Source: an uncultured Clostridium sp. (lineage in GTDB: Bacteria; Bacillota_A; Clostridia; TANB77; CAG-508). From it: a stretch of 10,838 bases of DNA. The stretch is from positions 1 through 10,838 of the forward strand of contig CAJKKA010000052.1 in the NCBI GenBank assembly GCA_905200315.1, given 5' to 3'. Position 1 is the first letter of the stretch, and each line of letters opens with the position of its first letter. The notes under the pieces were generated by a model. The model had not been told where the DNA came from. It made no database searches and saw only the letters and a list, made by a program, of their open reading frames with translations. A program made the translations under genes and the position numbers. This document shows, in pieces, positions 92 to 10,838 of the stretch.

Positions 92-961
92 ATGTATAAA
101 TTAGTTGCTATAGATTTAGATGGAACACTTTTAAATTCTTATGGAGAAGTTAGCAATGAAAATAAACAAGCAATAAAAAGGGCAATAAACAAAGGCGTAG
201 AAATTGTATTATCATCTGGAAGAATAGGAAATTCTGTAGAAAGTATTGCAAATGAGCTTGGGGCAAACAATTACTATATTTCAGGAAATGGCTCAATGCT
301 ATATAATATGAAAGAAGAAAAAATAGAATATGAAAATTTTATTAGCAAAGAAAAAATGCTTAAACTAATTAAAATATGTGATGAAAATAGTATTTATTAT
401 AGTATATATACTGAAAATATGGTAATAACAAAATCGTTAAAATATAATGTTGTATTTTATAATTATGAAAATAGTAAAAAAGCATTTGACAAACGTACTA
501 ATATAAATATTGTCCAAAATGTATATGAATATGTTGAAAACTTAGAAGATAATAAATTTTTAAAAATAACAATATGTGATGATAGTGAAATTATATTTTC
601 TAGAATAATTGAAAAATTTAAAAAAATAAATAACATAGATGTATTAGATGTATCACATATGTCAAGAAAAATTATAAAAGATGGAACAGAGGAAGTCCCA
701 ATAGAATATTACTACACAGAAATAACAAATAAAAATGTAGATAAATGGACAGCAATAGAATATTTAATTGAAAAAATAAATATAAAAAAAGAAGAAGTAA
801 TCGCAATAGGAGATAATATCAACGATAAACTTATGATAAAAAATGCTGGAGTAGGAGTAGCAATGGGGCAATCAAATCCAATAATAAAGGAAATGGCAGA
901 TGTAGTAACACAAGACAATAACAACAACGGAGTAGCAAATATTTTAAATAAAATAATTTAA
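92..961 (+). CDS. Cof-type HAD-superfamily phosphatase
   Basis: 289-residue cytosolic hydrolase of the Cof/YwpJ-like HAD family, whose members typically remove phosphate from sugar phosphates or related metabolites; the substrate cannot be read from sequence. All four HAD motifs are visible: motif I DLDGTLL at residues 8-14 (nucleophile D8, acid/base D10), motif II as SSGR at 41-44 (usually TGR), motif III lysine K218 in DKW, and motif IV GDNIND at 240-245 for Mg2+ binding. The region between motifs II and III (about 85-195) is the C2-type cap. Length is normal for the family and there is no signal peptide. The start is set by AGGAGG at 79-84, seven bases upstream. A 145-bp gap and a possible promoter separate it from the pilus-like genes, so a functional link to them is not supported. 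Family call is very safe; substrate unknown. Confidence 0.95.
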   Translation: MYKLVAIDLDGTLLNSYGEVSNENKQAIKRAINKGVEIVLSSGRIGNSVESIANELGANNYYISGNGSMLYNMKEEKIEYENFISKEKMLKLIKICDENSIYYSIYTENMVITKSLKYNVVFYNYENSKKAFDKRTNINIVQNVYEYVENLEDNKFLKITICDDSEIIFSRIIEKFKKINNIDVLDVSHMSRKIIKDGTEEVPIEYYYTEITNKNVDKWTAIEYLIEKINIKKEEVIAIGDNINDKLMIKNAGVGVAMGQSNPIIKEMADVVTQDNNNNGVANILNKII

Positions 962-1106: not shown

Positions 1107-2210
1107 ATGGCAAGTAATCCAATGCAAAGACAAAAAAAATTATCATTTTGGAAAGGTGTATTAATAACATTGTTACTATGTGCAATAGTTATTGGAGGTT
1201 TAGGGTATATGCTATACCAAAAAATAGATGCAGAAAAGAAATTGAAAGCAAGTATGGTTCAGGTATATACATTAACAACAGATGTATCATCTGGACAAGC
1301 AGTAACATCAGATATGCTAAAAATGCTAACTGTTAGTAGAACAACTGTACCAAGTAATGCAATAAGTGATAGTTCTGTATTTTCAAGCTATTCATTGCAA
1401 GATGAAAACGGAAATGAAATATATACAGATTCTCAAGGTTTATATGTAAAAGATGGAAACAAAACAGTTAGGATTACACAAGATGACAACGGAAACTACA
1501 TAAAAAATAATGAAACAATAAAATTAACAGAGGTTCCTTTAATTGCAAAAGTAGATATGAAAGCAAATACAGTATTAACTAAAGAACTAGTTGCACAAAG
1601 TGATGAAGTAAATACAGATGATGTAAGAACACAAGAATTTAATATGGTAACATTACCAACAACATTAGAAACTGGTGATTTTGTAGATATACGTTTACGT
1701 TTGCCAAATGGAACAGATTACATAGTTGTTTCTAAGAAAGAAGTAAATATACCAGATATAGCAGGAGTTCCTTCAACAGATACAATGGAAGTTAAAATGT
1801 CAGAAGATGAAATTTTAACAATGAGTAATGCAATAGTAGAAGCATACATAATGAAAGGTTCAGAATTATATGCAACAAAATACACAGACCCAGGAAATCA
1901 AGCAAAATCTACACCAACATATCCTGTTAGTAAAGAAACAATGGATTTAATAAATAATGATAGCAATATTGTAGAAACAGCAAAAAATGCACTTTGGGCT
2001 AGATACAATACAGACCAAAGAAATGGAAATGTAAATAACAATCTAAACAAAAATACAGAAGACTCAGCAGATAATGTTGAAAAAGGAATTGAAGATCAAA
2101 TACAAAAACAAAAAGAATTAAGACAAAATTATTTAGAAGCACTAAGCGGAGGAGAAACATCAACAACAACAACATCATCTTCTTCAACAACAACATCTTC
2201 ATCAAAATAA
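1107..2210 (+). CDS. Membrane-anchored SAF/RcpC-domain protein, CpaB-like
   Basis: 367 residues. A short basic N-terminus and one transmembrane helix (about 15-37) put the rest outside the membrane. The external part resembles CpaB/RcpC of Tad pilus systems: SAF-like strand and loop VYTLTTDVSSGQAVTSDML (53-71) plus TVPSNAI (80-86), its continuation VPLIAKVDMKANTVLTKELV (143-162), then LETGDFVDIRLRLPNG (187-202), matching the usual 'pGD.VDv' segment. Two oddities are an Asn/Asp/Gly-rich insert of about 55 residues (88-142) splitting the SAF fold, and a C-terminal Thr/Ser tail (351-366). In diderm Tad systems CpaB works with the secretin; no secretin is seen here, so this copy may act in the cell wall of a one-membrane cell (inference). 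AAGGAGGA at 1092-1099 fixes the start. It is the first gene of the run. Confidence 0.8.
   Translation: MASNPMQRQKKLSFWKGVLITLLLCAIVIGGLGYMLYQKIDAEKKLKASMVQVYTLTTDVSSGQAVTSDMLKMLTVSRTTVPSNAISDSSVFSSYSLQDENGNEIYTDSQGLYVKDGNKTVRITQDDNGNYIKNNETIKLTEVPLIAKVDMKANTVLTKELVAQSDEVNTDDVRTQEFNMVTLPTTLETGDFVDIRLRLPNGTDYIVVSKKEVNIPDIAGVPSTDTMEVKMSEDEILTMSNAIVEAYIMKGSELYATKYTDPGNQAKSTPTYPVSKETMDLINNDSNIVETAKNALWARYNTDQRNGNVNNNLNKNTEDSADNVEKGIEDQIQKQKELRQNYLEALSGGETSTTTTSSSSTTTSSSK
2157..2204 (+). repeat. ACA/TCA/TCT triplet tract encoding a Thr/Ser tail
   Basis: A low-complexity triplet run encodes 16 consecutive Thr or Ser residues (351-366) at the end of the SAF-domain protein, just before a terminal Lys. 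Codon-level repetition of aca, tca and tct makes slippage in multiples of three possible, which would change tail length without breaking the frame. Such tails outside the membrane may be wall-spanning or glycosylated; that is inference. Confidence 0.7.
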
Positions 2211-2226: not shown

Positions 2227-2916
2227 ATGAAAAAAGTAGGATTTATCGGAGGATATAAAAAAACAGATTTGCTTTTGTACATTGCAAAAATGTTAATAAT
2301 AGCAGGAAAAAAAGTTTTAGTAGTTGATACAACAATAGAGCAAAGAGCTAAATATATAGTACCATCTATAGACCCTACTTTTTCATATATTACTAATTAC
2401 GAAGATATAGATGTGGCAATAGGTTTTAAAGAAATAGATGAAATACAAGAATATTTAGCATCAAAAGATCCGGATTATGATTATGCATTAATAGATATTG
2501 ATAGAGCAAGTACATTATTAAACTTTGAAATGCTAAATAGCTTTAAAAATTATTTTGTAACAACATTTGATTTATACTCAATAAAAAAAGGACTAGAAAC
2601 ACTTAGTCAAATTTCTGAACCAATGGAATTAACAAAAATAATTTTTTCAAAAGAAATACTAAGTGAAGAAAACGAATATTTAGATTTTCTTTCATTAGGA
2701 TATAAAATAAAATGGGATGATTATAGAGTATACTTCCCATTTGAAATGGGAGACGAATCTGCAATAATAGACAACCAAAGACTAGCGAGAATAAAATTTA
2801 AAAACTTAAGTCCACAATATAAAGAAAGCCTTATGTATATTGCAGAAGAACTTTTAGGAGAAAAAGAAGTAAACAACTTTATAAAAGCATTAAAAAATTT
2901 TGAAAAAGGAGAATAA
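2227..2916 (+). CDS. ParA/MinD/CpaE-like protein with degraded P-loop (first copy)
   Basis: 229 residues, cytosolic, with the SIMIBI/ParA-like pattern: opening strand KKVGFIGG (2-9), a loop GGYKKTD (8-14) where KGGVGKT would sit, helix, then KKVLVVDTT (28-36; D34 is the Walker A' position) and YALIDID (86-92) as Walker B. The signature first lysine and glycine spacing of the deviant Walker A are absent, so nucleotide binding may be altered or lost; K12-T13 may be remnants. CpaE-type proteins guide Tad machines to a cell position or hold ATPase partners, and its place between the CpaB-like and CpaF-like genes fits that role. AGGAGG at 2216-2221 lies six bases before the ATG. It starts 16 bases after the SAF gene and ends two bases before the second copy. 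Fold assignment is good; catalytic status is uncertain. Confidence 0.7.
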   Translation: MKKVGFIGGYKKTDLLLYIAKMLIIAGKKVLVVDTTIEQRAKYIVPSIDPTFSYITNYEDIDVAIGFKEIDEIQEYLASKDPDYDYALIDIDRASTLLNFEMLNSFKNYFVTTFDLYSIKKGLETLSQISEPMELTKIIFSKEILSEENEYLDFLSLGYKIKWDDYRVYFPFEMGDESAIIDNQRLARIKFKNLSPQYKESLMYIAEELLGEKEVNNFIKALKNFEKGE

Positions 2917-2918
2917 AA

Positions 2919-3743
2919 ATGGCTATAGTAACATTTTGGAGTGAATGTAAAAAAGAAATAGGACAAACATCTACAGCTATAGCTGTTGCAACACAAATGG
3001 CTATAGAACATAACTATAAAATATTATTACTATCAACATACGATACAAACGATATGGACAAAGCCTACTGGAATGAAGATAAATTAAACAAAGGATTAAA
3101 AGGAATATTTGGAAATACAAAAAAAGTAAATATTGATTCTGGAATACAGGGATTAACAAAAGTTGCATTAAGTAACAAATTAACACCAAATATAATAACA
3201 AACTACTCAAAAATTGTATTTAAAAATAGACTAGAAGTTTTAGATGGATACACAGGAAAAGAAACAGATTATGAAACAATTTTTGGAGTATATCCAGAAG
3301 TAATACTAAATGCATCAATGTATTACGATATTGTACTTGTAGATTTAAATAGAGAAATAGACAATCAAATTACACAAAAAATTTTAGAAACTTCAAATGT
3401 AATAATGTATGGTTTTAATCAAAAAATGAGTACAGTAGACAAATTTATAGAGTCTGAAATGCAGGAAAAGAAAAATGTAGTACCATATATAGGTAGATAC
3501 GATAAATTTTCAAAATACAATTCAAAAAATATAAGTAGATACATAAAAAGCAAGAAAGATATAAATTATTTATCTTACAATACTTTATTTAATGAATCAT
3601 GCGAAGAAGGATTAGTAGCAAATTTATTTTTAAATTTGAAACAAATAAAAAGTGAGGATAAAAATTTAGATATACTAAAGGAAACCAGAAAAATTTCTGA
3701 AAGTATTATATATAAAATACAAGAATTAGAATTAAAAATCTAA
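2919..3743 (+). CDS. ParA/MinD/CpaE-like protein with degraded P-loop (second copy)
   Basis: 274 residues, soluble. It begins with strand AIVTFWSE (2-9), then KKEIGQTST (11-19) at the P-loop: glycine G15 and T17-S18 are kept, but the catalytic lysine position is Q16. It continues with helix AIAVATQMA (20-28), strand KILLLSTYD (34-42) and Walker-B-like DIVLVDLNRE (137-146). Lysine to glutamine at this place usually destroys ATP hydrolysis in P-loop NTPases, so this may be a structural partner rather than an ATPase (inference). It is not a simple recent duplicate of the preceding gene, since little primary sequence is shared outside the fold pattern. Its Shine-Dalgarno AGGAG (2907-2911) lies inside the end of the preceding gene, so translation of the two is probably coupled and expression roughly equal. 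Confidence 0.7.
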   Translation: MAIVTFWSECKKEIGQTSTAIAVATQMAIEHNYKILLLSTYDTNDMDKAYWNEDKLNKGLKGIFGNTKKVNIDSGIQGLTKVALSNKLTPNIITNYSKIVFKNRLEVLDGYTGKETDYETIFGVYPEVILNASMYYDIVLVDLNREIDNQITQKILETSNVIMYGFNQKMSTVDKFIESEMQEKKNVVPYIGRYDKFSKYNSKNISRYIKSKKDINYLSYNTLFNESCEEGLVANLFLNLKQIKSEDKNLDILKETRKISESIIYKIQELELKI

Positions 3744-3762: not shown

Positions 3763-5718
3763 ATGATAATCAACATAGTTTTAATAATAGCAGTATTATT
3801 AATTACAATTTTTGTTATATATAGCAATGTAAAAAAGAAACAAGCAGAAGAACCTGAAGAAGAAATTCAAGTTGACGATAAAACATTTACAATACAAAAA
3901 ATGACAGAATATGTAAAAAAGAGACTTGATGAAATAACAAAAATTAACTTATATGATATAGGACTTTCAGAAGAAGAATTAAAAAGAAGAAAAAACAAAA
4001 AATATGAATTGAAAAAAGCCTTAAAAGGATGTACATATGGAGATGTTAACGATAAAAAATACGTTAAAGAGTTAATATTTGATATACTTTCTAAAGAATA
4101 TGGAGTAGATGAAACAAACGTATCAAAAGCAATTCAATTCGATACACCTTCACTATTAACATCACAAGATAAATTTGACATATTAATATATGTATATAAA
4201 GAACAATTCGGTTATGAAGCATTAACTGAATTAATAAAAAAATACAATTTAGCTTCTTTAAAATATATAGCAGGAGAAACAAAGCCTTCATATGTAATAA
4301 CAGCAGAAGAAATAGCAGATATATTTGAAAAAGAACAAATAGTATTAACATTTACAGATAAACTAAATGTTGTAGTACAAAGAATTTATCAACATTATAA
4401 AGGCTATTCAAGTATAGATGAAATAAGAGATATGAATATAGATGGTGTATCTGGAGGTGTTTCAGGTTTACCAGAAAGTTTCTTAAGCCAAGTTGCGCAA
4501 ACAGATGGAGATTACCTAGTACAAGTTGCAGAACATAAAGTACCACGTGCTTGTGATAGTATATGGATATTTTTCCAAGGTAAATCTATACGTTTAGCAT
4601 TCTTATCATTTAATACAGAAGCAGAACTAAAAAGAGTATGTCAAAACATATATAAATACAATAACCCAGGACAATTATCAGATACAAATGGTTACAAAAT
4701 TAATGAAATGAAAGACGGTTCTCGTGTAGTTGTTGTTAGACCAAGTTTCTCTGAAACATGGGCTTTCTTCGTAAGAAAGTTCGATGTAAAAAGAGCAACA
4801 CTAGAACAATTAATTACAATACCAGGAAAAGAAGATGCAATAAGCCTATTAAAATTCTTAGTAAAGGGAGCAAGAATTATAGCATTAACAGGAGAGCAAG
4901 GTTCTGGTAAAACAACAATGCTAATGGGAATGATAGAAAACATATATGAAACAATGAACATAAGGGTTCAAGAGGTTGCATTCGAGCTTCACTTAAGAAA
5001 AATATATCCAACAAGAAACATACTATCTTTTAGAGAAACCGATACAATCTCAGGACAAGAAGGACTTGACGTTCAAAAGAAAACTGATGGTTCTGTTAAC
5101 ATTATAGGTGAGGTTGCAACAGATCCCGTTGCATCTTGGATGATCCAGGCAGCGCAAGTTGCATCTAAATTCACATTATTTACTCACCACGCAAAAACAT
5201 TTCCAAACTTAGTTACAGCATTAAGAAACTCAATGCTTAGAACAGGAGTATTCAACGACGAGAAAACAGCAGAAGAACAAGTTGTACAAGTACTTAACTT
5301 TGATATACACTTAGTAAAAGACTTTAGAGGAAGAAGATACATAGAAAGAGTTACAGAATGTATACCACTAGAATCAAAAAATGAATACACATTTGACTAT
5401 AGAAAAGAAAAAACACTAGAAGGAAAAATAAATAAATTTTTCGACAATGCAACAAACTACTTTACAAAAATAACAAACAATGATTTATACGCATACAGAA
5501 ACATAATGGAATATGTAGACGGAAAATATGTAATAACAAACCCGATATCAGACGAAAACATAGCAGCAATGAGGCTAAATATGTCAGATGATGATTTAGC
5601 AGAATTTGACGAATTTTTAAATAACCATTGGGGAATAAAACCACAAAGCTTTGACTACGAAGAAAAAACAGAAGAGAAACCACGTAGAGGAAGAAAACCA
5701 AAAACAATCACAGAATAA
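3763..5718 (+). CDS. CpaF-like type II/IV secretion ATPase with N-terminal membrane anchor
   Basis: 651 residues. Residues 2-21 form a transmembrane helix followed by KKK (24-26), expected to leave the bulk in the cytosol. After a charged linker and helical N-domain, MKDGSRVVVV (316-325) and FVRKFD (336-341) match the CpaF N-domain. The motor domain has Walker A GEQGSGKT (377-384), an Asp-box-like segment EVAFELHLRKIYP (404-416), Walker B VNIIGE (445-450) and His-box-like THHAKT (474-479). Relatives usually read GEVR after Walker B; here it is GEVA (A452). CpaF powers Tad pilus assembly and is normally soluble, about 450-500 residues, so the anchor and extensions are unusual. The tail (635-651) is basic, with PRRGRKPK (640-647). 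AGGAAGGAG at 3748-3756 supports the start and hence the anchor. It is the motor for the TadB/TadC platform encoded next. Confidence 0.88.
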   Translation: MIINIVLIIAVLLITIFVIYSNVKKKQAEEPEEEIQVDDKTFTIQKMTEYVKKRLDEITKINLYDIGLSEEELKRRKNKKYELKKALKGCTYGDVNDKKYVKELIFDILSKEYGVDETNVSKAIQFDTPSLLTSQDKFDILIYVYKEQFGYEALTELIKKYNLASLKYIAGETKPSYVITAEEIADIFEKEQIVLTFTDKLNVVVQRIYQHYKGYSSIDEIRDMNIDGVSGGVSGLPESFLSQVAQTDGDYLVQVAEHKVPRACDSIWIFFQGKSIRLAFLSFNTEAELKRVCQNIYKYNNPGQLSDTNGYKINEMKDGSRVVVVRPSFSETWAFFVRKFDVKRATLEQLITIPGKEDAISLLKFLVKGARIIALTGEQGSGKTTMLMGMIENIYETMNIRVQEVAFELHLRKIYPTRNILSFRETDTISGQEGLDVQKKTDGSVNIIGEVATDPVASWMIQAAQVASKFTLFTHHAKTFPNLVTALRNSMLRTGVFNDEKTAEEQVVQVLNFDIHLVKDFRGRRYIERVTECIPLESKNEYTFDYRKEKTLEGKINKFFDNATNYFTKITNNDLYAYRNIMEYVDGKYVITNPISDENIAAMRLNMSDDDLAEFDEFLNNHWGIKPQSFDYEEKTEEKPRRGRKPKTITE

Positions 5719-5748: not shown

Positions 5749-5788
5749 GTCAAACGTTGTAGGGGGCGGAGTCCTTATGGCGACCCGC
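5749..5788. repeat. GTAGGGG hairpin repeat, copy A (imperfect type)
   Basis: GC-rich element in the CpaF-TadB gap: leader GTCAAACGTT (5749-5758), core GTAGGGGGCGG from 5759, and end GGCGACCCGC (5779-5788). The two GC-rich ends can pair only imperfectly. It closely matches copy C in leader, core and end. The surrounding sequence is extremely AT-rich, so the element looks foreign to its setting. No T-run follows, so it is not a typical intrinsic terminator. Confidence 0.7.
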
Positions 5789-5810
5789 AATAAGATAACA
5801 ATAGATTAAC

Positions 5811-5846
5811 GTCAAACGCTGTAGGGGCAGACGCCTCTGTCTGCCC
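5811..5846. repeat. GTAGGGG hairpin repeat, copy B (perfect stem)
   Basis: Leader GTCAAACGCT (5811-5820) is followed by GTAGGGG at 5821 and a perfect 8-bp hairpin: GGGCAGAC (5825-5832), loop GCCTCT, GTCTGCCC (5839-5846). It lies 62 bases downstream of copy A, counted from GTAG to GTAG. Compared with copy D the loop is identical and one stem pair differs on both sides (A-T here, G-C there), so pairing has been preserved. Confidence 0.8.
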
Positions 5847-5887
5847 AAAATATAAAAAAATAACAAAAAACGAAAGGAGCAAAACAA

Positions 5888-7195
5888 ATGTCAAACGAAG
5901 TATTATTGTACATAGTAATAGCAGCAGTAGCAATGCTAGCAATAATTATAGTCGCATTCCTAATACTAAGCAAAAAAATGCAAAGCTCAGAAATAAAACA
6001 AATAAAAGCGTTAAGACAAGGAACAGAAAAAAGCTCCTTTTCAGCAGATATAATATTTCAAAAACTATACTTAAACTATAGAAAAATACCAATAATAAAA
6101 AGGTACTTACTAAAACTTAGAAGAAGACTAGAAATAACCAATATAGACGACGAATTTTTAACAAGACAACAATCAGCACAAATACTAACAAAAGCACTAG
6201 GAATTATTATTCCAACAACAATATTAATAATAATGCTTACAAAATCAAACATATTATTAATGGCAATGCTATTAATATTTGAACTATTCCTAATAGATAC
6301 AATAATTGATGGAATGGTAGATAAAATAGATAACAACCTATTAAAACAACAAATAGACTTTTTTGGTGAAATACGTCATGCATACCATGAATATAACATG
6401 GTAGAAGAAGCAATATATCAAACAGCACAAGAAATGGAAAACGAAGTTTCAAGACAAGCAGAAAAAATATACGAAGTATTAATTTCAGATGATCCAGAAA
6501 TGGAACTAGAAAAATATTACGATGTAGCACCAAATAGCTACCTAAAAGAATTTGCAGGAATATCATACTTAACAAAAGAATTTGGAGATAGAAAAACAGA
6601 CACATCTTCATCATTATACTTAAAAAACCTAAACAACATAACACAAGAAATGCAACTAGAAATATTAAAAAGAGATAAATTAGACTATGTATTCCAAAGT
6701 TTATCCGTAATTTCTGTAGTACCAATGCTATTTCTAGAAATGATAAAAAACTGGTCAGTTAGTCAATTTTCATTTACAAAAAGTTTTTACTATGGAAAAC
6801 AAGGATTAATAGTACAAATACTAATTCTTGTAGTTACAACTATAGCATATATGCTAACAAGAAAACTAAAAGACAATGGAGCAGTAAACACTGCAACGAA
6901 AAACTACGAAAATCCATGGCAAGAAAAACTATATAAAAAGAAAATTGTAAAACGTGTTATAGATACACTTATGCCAAAACCAGGAACAAAAGACTATAGA
7001 AAAATAAGAGCTCTACTCAAAGACTCAGCCTCAAAATTAAAAATGAAATGGCTATACATAAACAGAGTTTCAATATGTTTAGTTACTTTTATAGTATCCT
7101 TTGTATTGTTTGCACAATTACATAAAGTTGCAATTAATTATATATATACACAACCAACCACCACTTACGACATAATACGGAGATATGTCAGATAA
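5888..7195 (+). CDS. TadB-like inner-membrane platform protein
   Basis: 435 residues, multi-spanning. Hydrophobic segments lie at about 6-27, 103-138 (probably two close helices), 270-286, 307-323 and 391-409. The cytosolic part around 155-265 begins LLKQQIDFFGEIRHAYHEY (151-169) and fits the helical GspF/T2SF-type domain of TadB and TadC, which sits on the CpaF motor and couples ATP use to pilin insertion. It is longer than most TadB proteins (about 300 residues) because of the N-terminal helix and a C-terminal extension. Assignment rests on topology and position after CpaF, as GspF-like sequences diverge strongly. AAAGGAG (5873-5879) lies eight bases before the ATG. Its last 11 bases overlap the next gene. 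The hairpin pair A+B separates it from the ATPase gene and could alter the relative expression of the two parts. Confidence 0.78.
   Translation: MSNEVLLYIVIAAVAMLAIIIVAFLILSKKMQSSEIKQIKALRQGTEKSSFSADIIFQKLYLNYRKIPIIKRYLLKLRRRLEITNIDDEFLTRQQSAQILTKALGIIIPTTILIIMLTKSNILLMAMLLIFELFLIDTIIDGMVDKIDNNLLKQQIDFFGEIRHAYHEYNMVEEAIYQTAQEMENEVSRQAEKIYEVLISDDPEMELEKYYDVAPNSYLKEFAGISYLTKEFGDRKTDTSSSLYLKNLNNITQEMQLEILKRDKLDYVFQSLSVISVVPMLFLEMIKNWSVSQFSFTKSFYYGKQGLIVQILILVVTTIAYMLTRKLKDNGAVNTATKNYENPWQEKLYKKKIVKRVIDTLMPKPGTKDYRKIRALLKDSASKLKMKWLYINRVSICLVTFIVSFVLFAQLHKVAINYIYTQPTTTYDIIRRYVR
7179..7182 (+). promoter_or_regulatory. Tightly spaced ribosome binding site inside the TadB-like gene
   Basis: GGAG at 7179-7182 ends only two bases before the ATG at 7185, much closer than the 5-8 bases used by neighbouring genes. 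The start lies inside the upstream frame, whose TAA is at 7193-7195. Re-initiation by ribosomes finishing the upstream gene is the likely mode. An alternative ATG at 7212 has no better ribosome binding site. Confidence 0.5.
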
Positions 7196-7970
7196 AGATG
7201 AACAAGAAGCAATGAAAGTAACAGAACAAGACAATATATTCTTAAATCAATTTAAAGGAAAACTAAAAACAACACAAAAAGACATAGAATTTGCAATGAA
7301 ACACTCAAAATATTATAAAGAAGCATCAGACGATGACATACAAACAGATGCAGAAAGAGTATACAAAAAACTGCAAACAGTAAACAGTGAATACATGAAA
7401 TGGTTTGAAGTATTGCTAGCAATAGTATTTGCACTACTAGGATATATGTCACCAGTATGGTTATTGGTATTCCAAAAGAAAATGCGTTTAATGGAAATGG
7501 AAGACGAAGTAATGCAATTCCATACAATAATATTAATGCTTATGAAAATAGAAAGAGTAAACGTAGAAATGATACTAGAATGGCTAGAAAGATACTCAAA
7601 TATATTCAAAGCACCATTAAGCAAATGTATAAACAACTACGAAGCAGGAGCATGGGAAGCACTAGAAGCAATGAAAGATGAAATATCATATCAAGAAATG
7701 ACAAGACTAATAGAAAGTATGCAAGCAGCAGTTGAGAAAATACCAATAAGAGAAGCATTCGACGAACTAGACACAGAAAGAGCATACTACCAAGAAAAAA
7801 GAAAAGAATCAAACAACAGATTAATATCAAAAAAAGGAATGATAGGAAAAGCAATAGGCTTCACACCACTAGTATGCGTATTCGTTGGATACCTAATAAT
7901 ACCATTAGTATTCATAGGACTAACAAGTATGTCAACATCATTCAGCACAATGTCAAAAATGAAAATGTAA
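7185..7970 (+). CDS. TadC-like (GspF/T2SF domain) platform protein
   Basis: 261 residues. A charged cytosolic N-terminus (1-70) is followed by a transmembrane helix (about 74-97), a cytosolic helical domain (about 105-205) and a strongly hydrophobic C-terminal segment (about 224-246). The middle domain, with FHTIILMLMKIERVNVEMIL (112-131), the WLERYSNIFK stretch, EKIPIREAFDEL (184-195) and the charged run ERAYYQEKR (198-206), is typical of TadC/GspF proteins, which pair with TadB to form the membrane platform for pilin polymerisation or export. The overlap with the TadB-like frame implies coupled translation and roughly equal amounts, as expected of a heteromer. It is the last machine gene before the pilin-like cluster. 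The start at 7185 is the first ATG with any GGAG; initiation at residue 10 is possible and would not change the domains. Confidence 0.82.
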   Translation: MSDKDEQEAMKVTEQDNIFLNQFKGKLKTTQKDIEFAMKHSKYYKEASDDDIQTDAERVYKKLQTVNSEYMKWFEVLLAIVFALLGYMSPVWLLVFQKKMRLMEMEDEVMQFHTIILMLMKIERVNVEMILEWLERYSNIFKAPLSKCINNYEAGAWEALEAMKDEISYQEMTRLIESMQAAVEKIPIREAFDELDTERAYYQEKRKESNNRLISKKGMIGKAIGFTPLVCVFVGYLIIPLVFIGLTSMSTSFSTMSKMKM

Positions 7971-7994: not shown

Positions 7995-8032
7995 GTCAAA
8001 CTTGTAGGGGGCGGCGGCTTTAGGGCGACCCG
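7995..8032. repeat. GTAGGGG hairpin repeat, copy C (imperfect type)
   Basis: Leader GTCAAAC (7995-8001), core GTAGGGGGCGGCGG from 8004, and end GGGCGACCCG (8023-8032). It matches copy A except for a 2-base shorter leader and a few substitutions. It lies between the TadC-like gene and the first pilin-like gene and is followed by copy D, as copy A is by copy B. Confidence 0.7.
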
Positions 8033-8055
8033 AAAAAAATAATAAAAAATTAATA

Positions 8056-8100
8056 TTAGATGATGTAGGGGCGGACGCCTCTGTCCGCCCGAACATCTAA
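8056..8100. repeat. GTAGGGG hairpin repeat, copy D, with flanking inverted repeat
   Basis: Core GTAGGGG at 8065 and a perfect 8-bp hairpin GGGCGGAC (8069-8076), loop GCCTCT, GTCCGCCC (8083-8090). Outside it lies a second perfect 7-bp inverted repeat, TTAGATG (8056-8062) and CATCTAA (8094-8100), so the whole 45 bases can fold as a two-part stem. Its GTAG is 61 bases from that of copy C, almost the same spacing as between A and B. It ends 33 bases before the first pilin-like start codon. Confidence 0.8.
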
Positions 8101-8133: not shown

Positions 8134-8775
8134 ATGGAAAATGCAGCAAAAGCCCTTACAATAGCTGGAACAATACTAATATCAGTACTAGTAATATCAG
8201 CAGTTGTATTTATGTATAGAGATTTAACAAGTGTAAAAAGACAAGATGCAGAAAATCAAAAACTGCAAGAAATAACAGATTTCAACAAATCCTTCGAATC
8301 ATTCGATAAAACACTTAGCGGAGCAAAAATGCTATCATTATCAAATAAAATAAAAGACTATAATGAAAAATATACAGTAAGCGAAGGATATAAAAAAATA
8401 GAACTTTATATTAATGAAAATAACAATAATAATGGAACTGAATGGTATGAATATTATTCAAAATTACAAATTGATGTTGATAATATGATGAACGATAAAT
8501 ACATTTCAGCAAACTATTTAGAAGCATTAAAAGAAGCTTGTGAGGTAAAAAACAAAGCTGGTTCTTCTCATTTAGAACGAGAACAAGCAGATGAAACCTT
8601 AAAAGAATTAGAACAAAAATTAGGTTCTAATAAATATTCACAAGCAATTAATAAATATAAAGAAGATTATCCAATATATGAACAATATTTAATTATAAAA
8701 AAACAAACTTTTAAACCAGCTGGAATAGAATACGATACAAATGGAAGAATAATAAAAATGTCATATACAACGTAG
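8134..8775 (+). CDS. Pilin-like one-helix protein 1, with helical insert
   Basis: 213 residues. The N-terminus MENAAKALTIAG (1-12) runs straight into a hydrophobic helix (8-28), followed by a charged external part. The family motif DFNKSFESFD (49-58) and KIKDYN (72-77) precede an extra charged, mostly helical region of about 80 residues (102-185; Lys/Glu/Tyr-rich) absent from the paralogues. The protein ends with the shared strand pair FKPAGIEYDTNGRIIKMSY (193-211). There is no prepilin leader or G|xxxxE cleavage site. From the paralogy and the position after TadC, it is probably a structural subunit or cargo of the machine (inference). AAAGGAAG at 8120-8127 supports the start. The stop TAG (8773-8775) lies within hairpin copy E, so the final residue or two may derive from that insertion. 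It is the longest complete family member in the window. Confidence 0.75.
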   Translation: MENAAKALTIAGTILISVLVISAVVFMYRDLTSVKRQDAENQKLQEITDFNKSFESFDKTLSGAKMLSLSNKIKDYNEKYTVSEGYKKIELYINENNNNNGTEWYEYYSKLQIDVDNMMNDKYISANYLEALKEACEVKNKAGSSHLEREQADETLKELEQKLGSNKYSQAINKYKEDYPIYEQYLIIKKQTFKPAGIEYDTNGRIIKMSYTT

Positions 8776-8797
8776 GGGCACGACACCCCGTGCCCAC
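8772..8797. repeat. GTAGGGG hairpin repeat, copy E, overlapping a stop codon
   Basis: Core GTAGGGGC at 8772 with a 7-bp perfect hairpin: GGGCACG (8776-8782), loop ACACCC, CGTGCCC (8789-8795). The TAG of the core (8773-8775) is the in-frame stop of the upstream pilin-like gene. The GTC-type leader of copies A-C is absent because coding sequence occupies that place. Confidence 0.75.
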
Positions 8798-8811
8798 AAT
8801 ACAAAAAAACG

Positions 8812-8820
8812 AAAGGAGAA
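8812..8820 (+). promoter_or_regulatory. Ribosome binding site that decides the start of pilin-like protein 2
   Basis: AAAGGAGAA at 8812-8820 lies just before ATG 8826. It would be coding if translation began at the in-frame GTG at 8790, which is inside hairpin copy E. Starting at 8826 gives the same MENA N-terminus as the paralogues, so 8826 is preferred. The stretch ACAAAAAA(A)CGAAAGGAG here is nearly the same as the leader before the TadB-like gene (5863-5879). Confidence 0.75.
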
Positions 8821-8825
8821 AAGAT

Positions 8826-9335
8826 ATGGAAAATGCATCAAGAGCCTTATTAATGGCAGCAACTGTACTAATATCAGTAATGTTAATATCACTAGGAACA
8901 TATCTTTTTACGACATTTGGAACATATTCAAAAAACATAAACAAAAATCTAAGTGCAAAACAAAAAGATGAATTTAATGCACAATTTACCAAATACGAAG
9001 GTGGAGACCTGTGTACAGTATACGATATAGTAACAATAATAAACCTTGCCCAAAATAGTAATAATCAATACGAAGAATATTATAAATTAAATAATAGACC
9101 AAGAGACTTTAGAAACAATTCGAATACATATATATATGTGGATATAAAAGATATAAACATTAATGAACTATCACCAGAACCAAATTTAAACGAATTTATA
9201 AGTAGTAATAATAAAACAAAAGTAATTAATGATGGTAATGATAACAAAATTGTATATGAAAATTTGTATACATGTACTGTAAATATAAGTAATGAAACAG
9301 GAATTGTAAAAGCAATTACATTCACGAAAAAATAG
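8826..9335 (+). CDS. Pilin-like one-helix protein 2
   Basis: 169 residues. N-terminus MENASRALLMAATVL (1-15), hydrophobic helix to about residue 29, then a polar external domain. The family motif is clear: DEFNAQFTKYEGGDLCTVYD (48-67), then IVTIINLAQN (68-77). A low-complexity Asn/Tyr/Asp region follows, and the C-terminus has the shared strand pair YTCTVNISNETGIVKAITF (148-166). A single cysteine (C63) in the motif and a second (C150) could form a disulfide outside the membrane (inference). No leader peptide, and no other recognised domain. It begins 50 bases after the first paralogue, with copy E between them, and is followed by a 190-base gap holding an AT-rich inverted repeat and copy F. 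Pilin-like by context and paralogy; no direct functional evidence. Confidence 0.75.
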   Translation: MENASRALLMAATVLISVMLISLGTYLFTTFGTYSKNINKNLSAKQKDEFNAQFTKYEGGDLCTVYDIVTIINLAQNSNNQYEEYYKLNNRPRDFRNNSNTYIYVDIKDININELSPEPNLNEFISSNNKTKVINDGNDNKIVYENLYTCTVNISNETGIVKAITFTKK

Positions 9336-9342
9336 TACGAGC

Positions 9343-9387
9343 CAAAATAATAAATTAATCTGAAATTTAATCTTAATTATTATTTTG
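9343..9387. repeat. AT-rich inverted repeat downstream of pilin-like gene 2
   Basis: CAAAATAATAA (9343-9353) and TTATTATTTTG (9377-9387) are perfect 11-base inverted repeats. With one bulged A, TTAA on each inner side extends the stem by four pairs. It starts eight bases after the stop at 9333-9335 and is followed by TCTTT. It could slow transcription or mark an mRNA 3' end, but the stem is nearly all A-T, so it is not a classical terminator. Confidence 0.4.
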
Positions 9388-9404
9388 TCTTTAAACTAAT
9401 AAAT

Positions 9405-9436
9405 GTCAGATTTCGTAGGGGCGGTCATTGACCGTC
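9405..9436. repeat. GTAGGGG hairpin repeat, copy F
   Basis: Leader GTCAGATTTC (9405-9414) has the same length and a similar start to the leaders of copies A and B. The core GTAGGGGC begins at 9415. The hairpin is shorter: CGGTC (9422-9426), loop ATT, GACCG (9430-9434), extended by one G-U and one G-C pair. It is the most diverged copy. Confidence 0.6.
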
Positions 9437-9480
9437 ATGAAAAATAATACAAAATTTTACAAATAAACCACAAAAAACTA

Positions 9481-9509
9481 TTTACAAAAAACAATAAATA
9501 ATATAAAAT
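9481..9509 (+). promoter_or_regulatory. Possible sigma-A-type promoter before the MKKY pilin-like gene
   Basis: TTTACA (9481-9486), 17 bases, then TAAAAT (9504-9509): each box has five of six consensus matches. Transcription would start near 9516, on top of the AGGTG ribosome binding site, leaving almost no leader, which weakens the call. The gap is long enough to hold a promoter, but the AT-rich background gives many chance matches. Confidence 0.2.
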
Positions 9510-9525
9510 TCAAATAGGTGTAAAA

Positions 9526-9954
9526 ATGAAAAAATATATAATAACCATATTAATATTGGTTGCAATAGTAATTTCATCCATGCTATATGCATACAACACA
9601 TATAAAAAAAATATACAAGATTTAAAAGACTACAACAATGAATTTACAAAATACCAAAACACAGAAATAGCAGGAACAGAAATAGCAACAATATTAAACA
9701 AAGCAGTAAACAACAATGAGCAAAATAAAGTAAGCAAAAATGAAAAAGAAATGTATATAGAAAATGATGAAAATTCAATAAAAGTAGACATATACATAAA
9801 AGATAATGATACAACCTACTCAATGGAAACAATATATAATATGGGAGTAGAAAAATTTATAAATAGTTTTAGTTTAGAAACATTTAAAATAACAGATGTG
9901 CAATATCACACAAAAACCAAAAAAATAAAATATATAAAAATAGAACAACAATAA
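9526..9954 (+). CDS. Divergent pilin-like one-helix protein without the MENA N-terminus
   Basis: 142 residues. It begins MKKYIITILILVAIV and has one hydrophobic helix (4-22), which could be an uncleaved anchor or signal-like segment, then a polar Lys/Asn/Glu-rich part. It lacks the MENA start but shares family features: DYNNEFTKYQNTEIAG (35-50) lines up with the FN..F..YEG motif, IATILNKAVNNN (53-64) with the helix after it, and FKITDVQYHTKTKKIKYIKI (120-139) with the C-terminal strand pair. A likely diverged paralogue, perhaps a minor or tip subunit or a chaperone-like partner of the others (inference). AGGTG (9516-9520) is a weaker ribosome binding site than its neighbours have, so lower expression is plausible. 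It sits between the second and third MENA proteins. The homology is modest and based on motif positions. Confidence 0.6.
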   Translation: MKKYIITILILVAIVISSMLYAYNTYKKNIQDLKDYNNEFTKYQNTEIAGTEIATILNKAVNNNEQNKVSKNEKEMYIENDENSIKVDIYIKDNDTTYSMETIYNMGVEKFINSFSLETFKITDVQYHTKTKKIKYIKIEQQ

Positions 9955-9970
9955 AATAGTTATCAATATT

Positions 9971-9986
9971 TGTCTAAAAAAAGACA
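9971..9986. repeat. Short inverted repeat between pilin-like genes
   Basis: TGTCT (9971-9975) and AGACA (9982-9986) pair around a six-A loop in the 74-base gap before pilin-like gene 3. No T-run follows. A TTGTCT (9970-9975) and TATAAA (9995-10000) spaced 19 bases apart could be a weak promoter, but neither reading is strong. Confidence 0.2.
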
Positions 9987-10028
9987 GTATAGAATATAAA
10001 AAATAAAAAAAACTAAGGAGGAAAAGTT

Positions 10029-10445
10029 ATGGAAAACGCATCAAAAGCCTTAATAATAGCAGGTGCAATATTACTTTCAATTTTAATTATAGCATTAGGA
10101 GTATTTGTATTTAACCAAGCAAAAAGTGCAGTAGGGAATACAGGTTTATCAGACCAAGAAGTAGCAGCATTTAATAGTAAATTTGATTCTTATGAAGGAA
10201 AACAAAAAGGTTCATCAGTAAAGGCTTTAATAAATACAGTAAAAAACTATAATAAATCAGCTGAGAATGGAGAAATTATTGATATAAAAAATACTGCAGC
10301 TGGAACTGGTATAGTGGATCAACTTCCAAACGATACAAATGTTTCTTATGCAAATACTAATATAGTTTCTGGTAAGATGTATACAGTTTCATTTGAATAT
10401 AATAAACAAGGCAGAATTTCTGCAGTTTGCTATGTAGCTAATTAA
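10029..10445 (+). CDS. Pilin-like one-helix protein 3 (compact family member)
   Basis: 138 residues; the most compact complete member and perhaps the closest to the family core. N-terminus MENASKALIIAGAILLS (1-17), hydrophobic helix to about residue 29, linker, motif AAFNSKFDSYEGKQKGSSV (47-65), helix KALINTVKNYN (65-75), then a small domain ending in the strand pair MYTVSFEYNKQGRISAVCYV (117-136). There is no leader peptide. It has the strongest ribosome binding site of the pilin-like genes, AAGGAGG at 10015-10021 with seven bases to the ATG, which would suit an abundant subunit (inference). It is separated by 12 bases from the next paralogue, so the two are very probably cotranscribed. It is pilin-like by topology, paralogy and placement next to TadB/TadC-like genes; polymerisation is not shown by sequence. 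Confidence 0.78.
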   Translation: MENASKALIIAGAILLSILIIALGVFVFNQAKSAVGNTGLSDQEVAAFNSKFDSYEGKQKGSSVKALINTVKNYNKSAENGEIIDIKNTAAGTGIVDQLPNDTNVSYANTNIVSGKMYTVSFEYNKQGRISAVCYVAN

Positions 10446-10457
10446 TAGGAGTGTATT

Positions 10458-10838
10458 ATGGAAAATGCGACAGAAGCTTTAAAAATAGCAGGTTTTACAT
10501 TGCTATTTGTTGCAGCCTTATCAATAGCAATGGTAACAATAATGCAAGCAAAGAGAACATCACAAGATGTTCTCTCATATTCAGACAAAACGAGATATTC
10601 ATCTAATATTGAAAGTGATACTAGTAAATTTGAGAATGGCAATAGAATAGTAAATGTGTACGATATAATACCAACATTATATAGATATTACCAAGAAAAA
10701 TATATAGTTTTATTTTATAATGGAAGTTCTCCATTGGAAATTTACAATGGACCTATTAAAGATAAAAATAGTACAATATATGATCCCGCGAAGGTTATAT
10801 TCCCCTCTTTTTGCAGGATCGGTGCATCAACTGCGGAC
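10458..10838 (+). CDS. Pilin-like one-helix protein 4 (3' end cut by window edge)
   Basis: 127 codons are open to the edge with no stop. MENATEALKIAGFTLLFVAA (1-20) keeps the family start, although position 6 is Glu rather than Lys or Arg, and the helix runs to about residue 29. The external part differs from the compact paralogue: it lacks the FN..F..YEG stretch in its usual form but has NRIVNVYDIIPTLYRYYQEK (62-81), which aligns with VYDIVTIINLAQ of pilin-like protein 2. It is followed by YIVLFYNGSSPLEIYNG (82-98), a likely strand pair. AGGAG (10447-10451) lies six bases before the ATG. The last 19 codons come from sequence of quite different base composition, and that part of the protein may not be genuine. 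Possibly a minor pilin or a different functional class from proteins 1-3. Confidence 0.7.
   Translation, partial: MENATEALKIAGFTLLFVAALSIAMVTIMQAKRTSQDVLSYSDKTRYSSNIESDTSKFENGNRIVNVYDIIPTLYRYYQEKYIVLFYNGSSPLEIYNGPIKDKNSTIYDPAKVIFPSFCRIGASTAD
10782..10838. other. GC-rich right edge, possible chimeric or foreign tail
   Basis: The final 57 bases are about half G+C (30 of 57 by count), against the strongly AT-rich sequence just before. They begin at GATCCCGCG and contain no feature of the GTAGGGG family. The frame of the pilin-like gene stays open through them, giving residues 109-127. An assembly join or read error at the contig end is the simplest explanation. Confidence 0.45.

Follow-up and report, generated by a model that had tools for sequence, protein, structure and literature searches.

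Predicted leaderless subunits beside a Tad-like assembly machine in Bacillota

What defines the subunits of type IV filaments is a class III signal peptide cut by a prepilin peptidase (PMC6668835 and PMC10191384), and such leader processing is described as needed before filament assembly (PMC10191384). A 10,838-nt stretch of DNA from an uncultured Clostridium sp. (contig CAJKKA010000052.1 of GCA_905200315.1; hereinafter the window) raises the question of what a pilus-like machine might do with subunits that bear no such leader. Its genes form a single run on the + strand, coding in order for a HAD hydrolase, a CpaB-like protein, two P-loop-like proteins, a CpaF-like ATPase, a platform split into two open reading frames (ORFs), and five small proteins (Table 1). 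A first-pass annotation had noticed that four of the latter start with MENA, that is, apparently where a mature pilin would begin, and had proposed, should they be pilins, a maturation route different from that of known Tad systems. We consider the likeliest reading, with moderate confidence, to be a Tad-like machine of Bacillota that builds a type IV filament or pseudopilus from leaderless subunits. Because the definition in the field demands a class III signal peptide, the MENA proteins are not type IV pilins by membership, even though the components of the machine suggest a similar way of working. A literature search, with most subscription papers and preprints outside its reach, returned no description of leaderless type IV pilins or of this operon.

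For comparison, we used the best 80 of at least 445 relatives of the ATPase confirmed by a contig scan with the ATPase alignment, which together with the window make up 81 loci; the titles of these 80 contigs name Clostridia, Clostridium sp. or Clostridiaceae, and they are metagenome assemblies almost throughout. We further drew on samples of 293 genomes of the class and 348 of the phylum, and on 72,556 plasmid records (PLSDB). Loci from 25 of the 27 class genomes with the ATPase were added to the set, the other two (G016 and G043; L and G numbers are our handles for loci and genomes) being already represented by L022 and L063. The ATPase and platform are present in all 81 loci, and nine gene families, where present, keep one order and one strand throughout, the full set being found in 56. 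The small-protein cluster occurs in 79 of the 81 and comprises 403 members; among the 70 loci having both cluster ends, 51 have five members, 17 have six and 2 have seven. Seventy of the 81 loci have a 'MGDT' protein bearing an RQDD motif, and 62 a larger MK(L/I)Q protein.

The MENA start of the four window ORFs is no chance likeness: 274 of the 403 cluster members start with MENA, and the gene of 110–175 aa immediately following the MKK-type gene is a MENA gene in all 65 loci where such a gene was obtained (16/81 loci yield none). An aspartate or glutamate stands at position 2 in 310/403 members, as against 81/659 other genes of the same loci (those of at least 100 aa with a Shine-Dalgarno match of at least 5); this is the unfiltered figure, the column frequencies of E2 and N3 being given by construction, as they come from members pre-filtered by M[ED][ND]. 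The upstream codons, Shine-Dalgarno matches, missing cleavage site and independent gene calls all agree with the leaderless start of the first-pass annotation. Between the start and the preceding in-frame stop, 284 of the 296 ME[ND] members are free of in-frame ATG, GTG and TTG codons; the median distance to that stop is 5 codons, with the open stretch spanning at most 6 codons in 187/296, and 294/296 have a Shine-Dalgarno match of 4 nt or longer. If near-cognate codons (CTG, ATT, ATA and ATC besides the usual starts) are admitted, one lies upstream in 143/296; initiation at these, if not excludable one by one, is made unlikely by how short the open stretch is and by the ribosome-binding sites. 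For subunit 2 an in-frame GTG at 8790 was rejected as the start, the Shine-Dalgarno lying 3′ of it and before the ATG at 8826. The classical Gly-x4-Glu pattern is absent from the first 35 residues of all 303 MENA-type members, and a relaxed [GA]-x4-[DE] pattern is seen in 8, with a hydrophobic run after the site in 4. Among the 100 other cluster members the strict pattern occurs in 3, none with a subsequent hydrophobic run; the relaxed pattern occurs in 26/72 RQDD and 2/68 MK(L/I)Q proteins, again with no hydrophobic run after it. Nine rows of classical prepilins (some duplicates) set beside these are an illustration and not a control, because the search pattern itself demands the cleavage site.

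Proteins called by others tell the same story. A protein search with subunit 4 recovered 7069 relatives at E≤0.001, and the best 120 of these all begin M-E; database proteins of a second lineage begin M-[DE] in 79/82 cases, the remaining three being shorter pieces. Directly behind the platform, the first gene begins with M[DE] in 77/79 loci of the window lineage and in 22/23 loci of other lineages (24 fetched class loci have an unsplit platform, of which 23 gave the following gene), with examples from other lineages such as MDNAQKAI, MENSLKAI, MEGNLSKAL and MDDVMKLI; L103 has a split platform, followed by a gene beginning MENASKAL. The exceptions are MTM-ENASKAL, MF-MENS and L078, where MENAAKG lies just upstream of the called start. 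Judged from sequence, a class III signal peptide cannot be recognised in the MENA-type subunits, and leaderlessness is general among everything examined; an acid at position 2 is not. The Glu at position 2 that the first-pass annotation had emphasised holds for the window lineage, but its place is taken by Asn or Ser on two Bacilli plasmids and by Asn in three loci of the phylum sample; hence, it does not stand in for the Glu5 of pilins in any fixed way.

The subunits share an N-terminal helix and differ in their heads. The F-N-x-x-F-x-x-[Y/F]-[E/D] motif ascribed earlier to three MENA proteins is indeed present in subunits 1, 2 and 4 (FNKSFESFD, FNAQFTKYE and FNSKFDSYE), while, of the three complete MENA proteins, two have a Y-x-x-x-G-R-I motif (YDTNGRI and YNKQGRI) and the one at 8826 lacks it. 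The set of paralogues was also larger than supposed: a fifth, subunit 3, with an MKK-type N-terminus and YNNEFTKYQ as its counterpart of the first motif, had been overlooked, and 70 members of the cluster are of this MK[KR] type. Conservation of subunit 4, computed at first from proteins picked by their N-terminus (and hence biased) and then repeated with 65 proteins picked by position, is 98% over residues 1–8, 82% over 9–16, 68% over 17–24 and 21% over 33–40. Paralogues of the same locus (448 pairs) share 43% over residues 8–24, compared with 18% in shuffled sequences and 27% from residue 41 on. An AlphaFold2 model of subunit 4 predicts a helix over residues 2–35 followed by an α/β head. No Pfam or NCBIfam model reaches its cut-off in the five small proteins of the window.

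The neighboring genes support the first-pass identification of a Tad-like machine, through a CpaF-like ATPase, a platform whose models are suggestive of GspF/PilC, and conserved synteny. The ATPase scores 28.2 bits against PF00437 (cut-off 24.9), which assigns it to the assembly ATPases of the T2SSE/PilB/CpaF family, and is alone among the machine genes of the window in exceeding a Pfam cut-off; its L115 orthologue scores 16.6, under the cut-off. The PDB matches to the ATPase alignment at E≤1e-5 are CpaF chains only (3 distinct sequences); its Walker A motif is at residue 377 and an FTHHA motif at residue 473. The platform is a single protein of more than 600 aa in 66/81 loci and two ORFs in 13/81, with the junction shared in 10 of the latter, the window among them. 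At the sequence level, Pfam, NCBIfam, the PDB and an hhalign comparison with PilC yielded no decisive match for it, and among the PF00482 matches listed for the 27 class genomes none lies at the ATPase locus; SpoIIIAB is also among its fold matches.

The N-terminus of the subunits follows this machine. The ATPase was found in 27 of the 293 class genomes (best E≤4e-213 in each), with no other genome under the presence limit of 1e-30, and a protein search with the ATPase as query gave at least 7657 relatives, among the 8000 candidates scored. The subunit profile matches 13 class genomes, 10 with the N-terminus and 3 with the head alone: all of the former, and none of the latter, are among the 27 with the ATPase (10/10, Fisher 8e-12), which bears out the co-occurrence that the first-pass annotation had put forward as a check. 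The head domain (profile residues 14–139) recurs at the C-terminus of proteins of ~540–660 aa with an N-terminal hydrophobic stretch (L122–L126), whether the genome has the machine or not (G195, G262 and G323 lack the ATPase); the sole one run against Pfam, L122:1088-2803 of G177, is a DUF6583 protein (PF20224). Homologues without Tad genes, which the first-pass annotation would have counted against itself, thus exist for the head alone, since it occurs in ATPase-less genomes, whereas the N-terminal helix was found only with the ATPase.

Beyond the class sample, the subunit matches 4 of the 348 phylum genomes, namely the window-lineage centre and three large genomes; the latter have the same operon at four loci, with subunits MNNASSALKVAAG or MNNASAALKVAAG in three and MEENASKG in one. 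With one of the subunits from these large genomes as the query, 22 plasmid records were recovered, from Paenibacillus (10), Lysinibacillus (7), and Cohnella, Thermobacillus, Alkalihalophilus, Sporosarcina and Cytobacillus (1 each). Among the Bacilli plasmid loci, four with annotation (L171–L174) code for a SAF protein, two further products, the ATPase, the platform, the subunit and three small-to-middling hypothetical proteins, followed downstream by an S-layer-homology protein (three loci) or a stalk-domain protein (one) and by a DUF5704 protein (all four), which might perhaps be a surface anchor or tip. Their subunits begin MDSVTKAII, MSTNASKAL, MNNASSALK and MESPVVKAI, the last from a TTG. 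In Paenibacillus sp. IHB B 3084, the subunit and the ATPase are matched close to the ends of separate plasmid records (NZ_CP013206.1 and NZ_CP013205.1), which may be two pieces of a single plasmid.

In the mechanism we favor, the CpaF-type ATPase would power the TadB- and TadC-like platform, which would raise small membrane proteins, each with a single helix, to build a filament or a short pseudopilus, with the CpaB-like and P-loop proteins acting as base and positioning factors. The first helix would insert the subunits in an N-in/C-out orientation. A prepilin peptidase would be dispensable, because translation begins at the end that is processed elsewhere, and, given the specificity of Met-aminopeptidase, the initiator Met would probably be kept before Glu, Asp or Asn. 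Polymerisation would proceed via the near-invariant N-terminal helix with the variable heads pointing outward; subunit 4 is the probable major subunit, and the remaining ones would be minor or tip subunits. More tentatively, we can picture, without yet calling it probable, an undescribed 'leaderless' class of type IV filaments across Bacillota, in which MENA-like subunits are translated in mature form with no peptidase and the Met kept, polar residues at positions 2–6 (E/D/N/S, often followed by K) replace the pairing of Glu5, and large plasmids of Paenibacillaceae and Bacillaceae have acquired the system, maybe for contact or transfer. If true, such machines would show that the prepilin processing step can be dispensed with, offer a comparative test of what Glu5 and N-terminal processing do, and add a surface structure invisible to leader-based searches. 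This is testable now because the locus sits on plasmids of cultured strains, including Paenibacillus polymyxa M1 and Alkalihalophilus pseudofirmus OF4.

Two results qualify the reading as a filament of leaderless subunits: the predicted head matched no pilin among solved structures (PDB), its only rows being weak and NTF2/KSI-like, which in itself settles nothing and neither assigns nor rules out a known fold; and a prepilin peptidase (PF01478) is encoded by 49/50 genomes of the window lineage. The first of these is among the points in favor of a static or short-lived envelope complex for secretion or adhesion, in which the ATPase and platform organise anchored subunits with no filament. So are the use of the same head in the ~600-aa proteins outside the machine (including the DUF6583 protein), the quite different N-terminus of subunit 3, and the match of the platform to SpoIIIAB, part of a pilin-less sporulation complex. 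Nevertheless, the CpaF-type machines known so far assemble pilins, the best-conserved stretch of subunit 4 is residues 1–8, which would be odd for a plain anchor, and several paralogues with a shared helix and differing heads resemble a pilin set; we therefore regard this complex as rather unlikely, if the strongest of the alternatives.

The SpoIIIAB match aside, the neighborhood of the locus could point to a sporulation-linked envelope device in place of a surface pilus of growing cells. A SASP gene lies nearby in 50/81 loci and a SpoIVB-type peptidase gene downstream in 65/81, these families being named from L001, where an alpha/beta SASP gene (5996-6202) and a SpoIVB peptidase gene (19402-20628) flank the locus. 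The SpoIVB gene is present in 26/27 genomes with the ATPase versus 191/266 others (p=0.0045), a comparison in which genome kinship is uncontrolled. Elsewhere the locus has other neighbors, such as a kinase in L115 and the S-layer-homology proteins on plasmids, and we think a role tied to sporulation improbable.

No better placed is a mating pilus, whereby the machine would serve cell-cell contact for plasmid transfer in Bacilli. Besides the 22 plasmid records, a Lysinibacillus sphaericus plasmid carrying the locus would, if it is pBsph, speak for it: pBsph-type Lysinibacillus plasmids are reported to be conjugative (PMC13239906), although the accessible part of that paper names a type IV secretion system, without the words 'pilus' or 'CpaF'. 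PLSDB types all 22 records as non-mobilizable. In the window lineage, the locus is surrounded by genes that, going by their names, we take to be chromosomal. Transfer thus has little to recommend it as the function.

As for maturation, the first-pass idea of a different route fits the missing leader but must be set against the peptidase of the window lineage and the classical prepilins of the carriers. In the class sample PF01478 is present in 23/27 genomes with the ATPase versus 175/266 others (p=0.05); as carriers usually encode a peptidase, its genome-wide lack was discarded as proof of leaderlessness. We inspected 34 carriers (27 of the class sample and 7 of the window lineage) for classical pilus parts: 32 encode PF00482 proteins and 27 have N_methyl prepilins over the cut-off, so the peptidase likely has other substrates. 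G008, G228 and G029 each have 24 to 45 N_methyl-type matches at E≤1, many under the cut-off and many in frames of 400–600 aa, which looks like an expansion of large prepilin-like proteins. With a model built from 10 PilD-like proteins, a peptidase gene was detected in one of 105 loci and none in the window; in that locus (L120:3023-5049) an A24 peptidase gene and a DUF6382-FHA gene share a run with the leaderless subunit, perhaps an intermediate stage derived from classical Tad loci. That the subunits are ordinary type IV pilins which this peptidase cuts internally, at a non-classical position such as behind residue 11 or 12, could draw on the wide presence of the enzyme, on its gene in L120, and on G001 and G002, which have it with no PF00482 (PilC) or N_methyl match over the cut-off, but is the least credible account, as Gly occupies position 12 in only 61% of M[ED][ND] members, the cut would discard the most conserved residues, and sites of classical form are all but missing from the 303 MENA-type members.

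Table 1. Genes of the window with their coordinates
Feature	Position	Strand	Remarks
HAD-family hydrolase	92..961	+	PF08282, E 3.4e-57; in 61/81 loci
CpaB/RcpC-like membrane protein, SAF-like region	1107..2210	+	TIGR03177, 31.2 bits, under cut-off of 71; 78/81 loci
P-loop-like protein 1	2227..2916	+	weak AAA_31, E 0.011, under cut-off; 79/81 loci
P-loop-like protein 2	2919..3743	+	81/81 loci
CpaF/TadA-like secretion ATPase, N-terminal membrane anchor	3763..5718	+	PF00437 over cut-off
TadB-like platform half	5888..7195	+	fused with next gene in most loci
TadC-like platform half, T2SSF-like fold suggested	7185..7970	+	
MENA subunit 1, 213 aa, MENAAKAL	8134..8775	+	member of 403-protein cluster
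MENA subunit 2, 169 aa, MENASRAL	8826..9335	+	
Subunit 3, related head, MKK-type N-terminus (MKKYII...)	9526..9954	+	clusters with MENA proteins
MENA subunit 4, small, MENASKAL	10029..10445	+	7069 relatives; 65/65 MENA by position; AlphaFold2 model
MENA subunit 5, MENATEAL, incomplete at window end	10458..>10838	+	counterparts elsewhere mostly 189–288 aa

Of the remaining genes, the HAD hydrolase is probably an upstream neighbor outside the machine. P-loop-like protein 2 has no Pfam or NCBIfam model over the cut-off, and its counterparts at the same position in L115 and L167 show a weak AAA_31 match, under the cut-off; both P-loop-like proteins are possible counterparts of CpaE/TadZ. A Ser/Thr kinase gene lies upstream of the operon in L115 (1955-3379), with similar genes in L105, L111, L120, L167 and L168 (the kinase domain being confirmed for L115 alone). 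The A+T-rich contig is dotted with short G-rich intergenic elements (GTAGGGGC...CGCCC and similar) at 5757-5850, 8002-8092, 8773 and 9416, and has six TAGGGG sites; 9 of the 80 related loci contain GTAGGGGC (this strand only), and an Rfam scan of the window, these elements included, gave no match. The last 60 nt (10779-10838) have 50% G+C versus 28% overall, for which reason the end of the subunit-5 ORF may be an artefact of a chimeric contig end.

Among the closest known systems is DUF6583 (PF20224), the G177 protein of which shares the head domain at its C-terminus but is about 570 aa long with another N-terminus. The Tad/Flp (type IVc) pilus, as in CpaA-F/PilA of Caulobacter, has in common with this system the CpaF-type ATPase, a putative TadB/TadC-like platform, fused or split, and CpaB-like and P-loop-like genes within one run. 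The pilin of Caulobacter has a signal peptide of 14 residues and Glu19/Tyr20 (PMC11067988). In contrast to Flp pilins, the MENA subunits have neither the leader nor the Glu5-Tyr6 pair, and bear extra domains after the helix; likewise, 104 of the 105 loci yielded no peptidase gene. More broadly, although the class III signal peptide of the type IV filament superfamily (type IVa pili, the type II secretion system and the Com pilus) is missing in the MENA-type subunits, the two share a motor, a putative GspF/PilC-like platform, and several single-helix subunits with a common N-terminus and varied heads.

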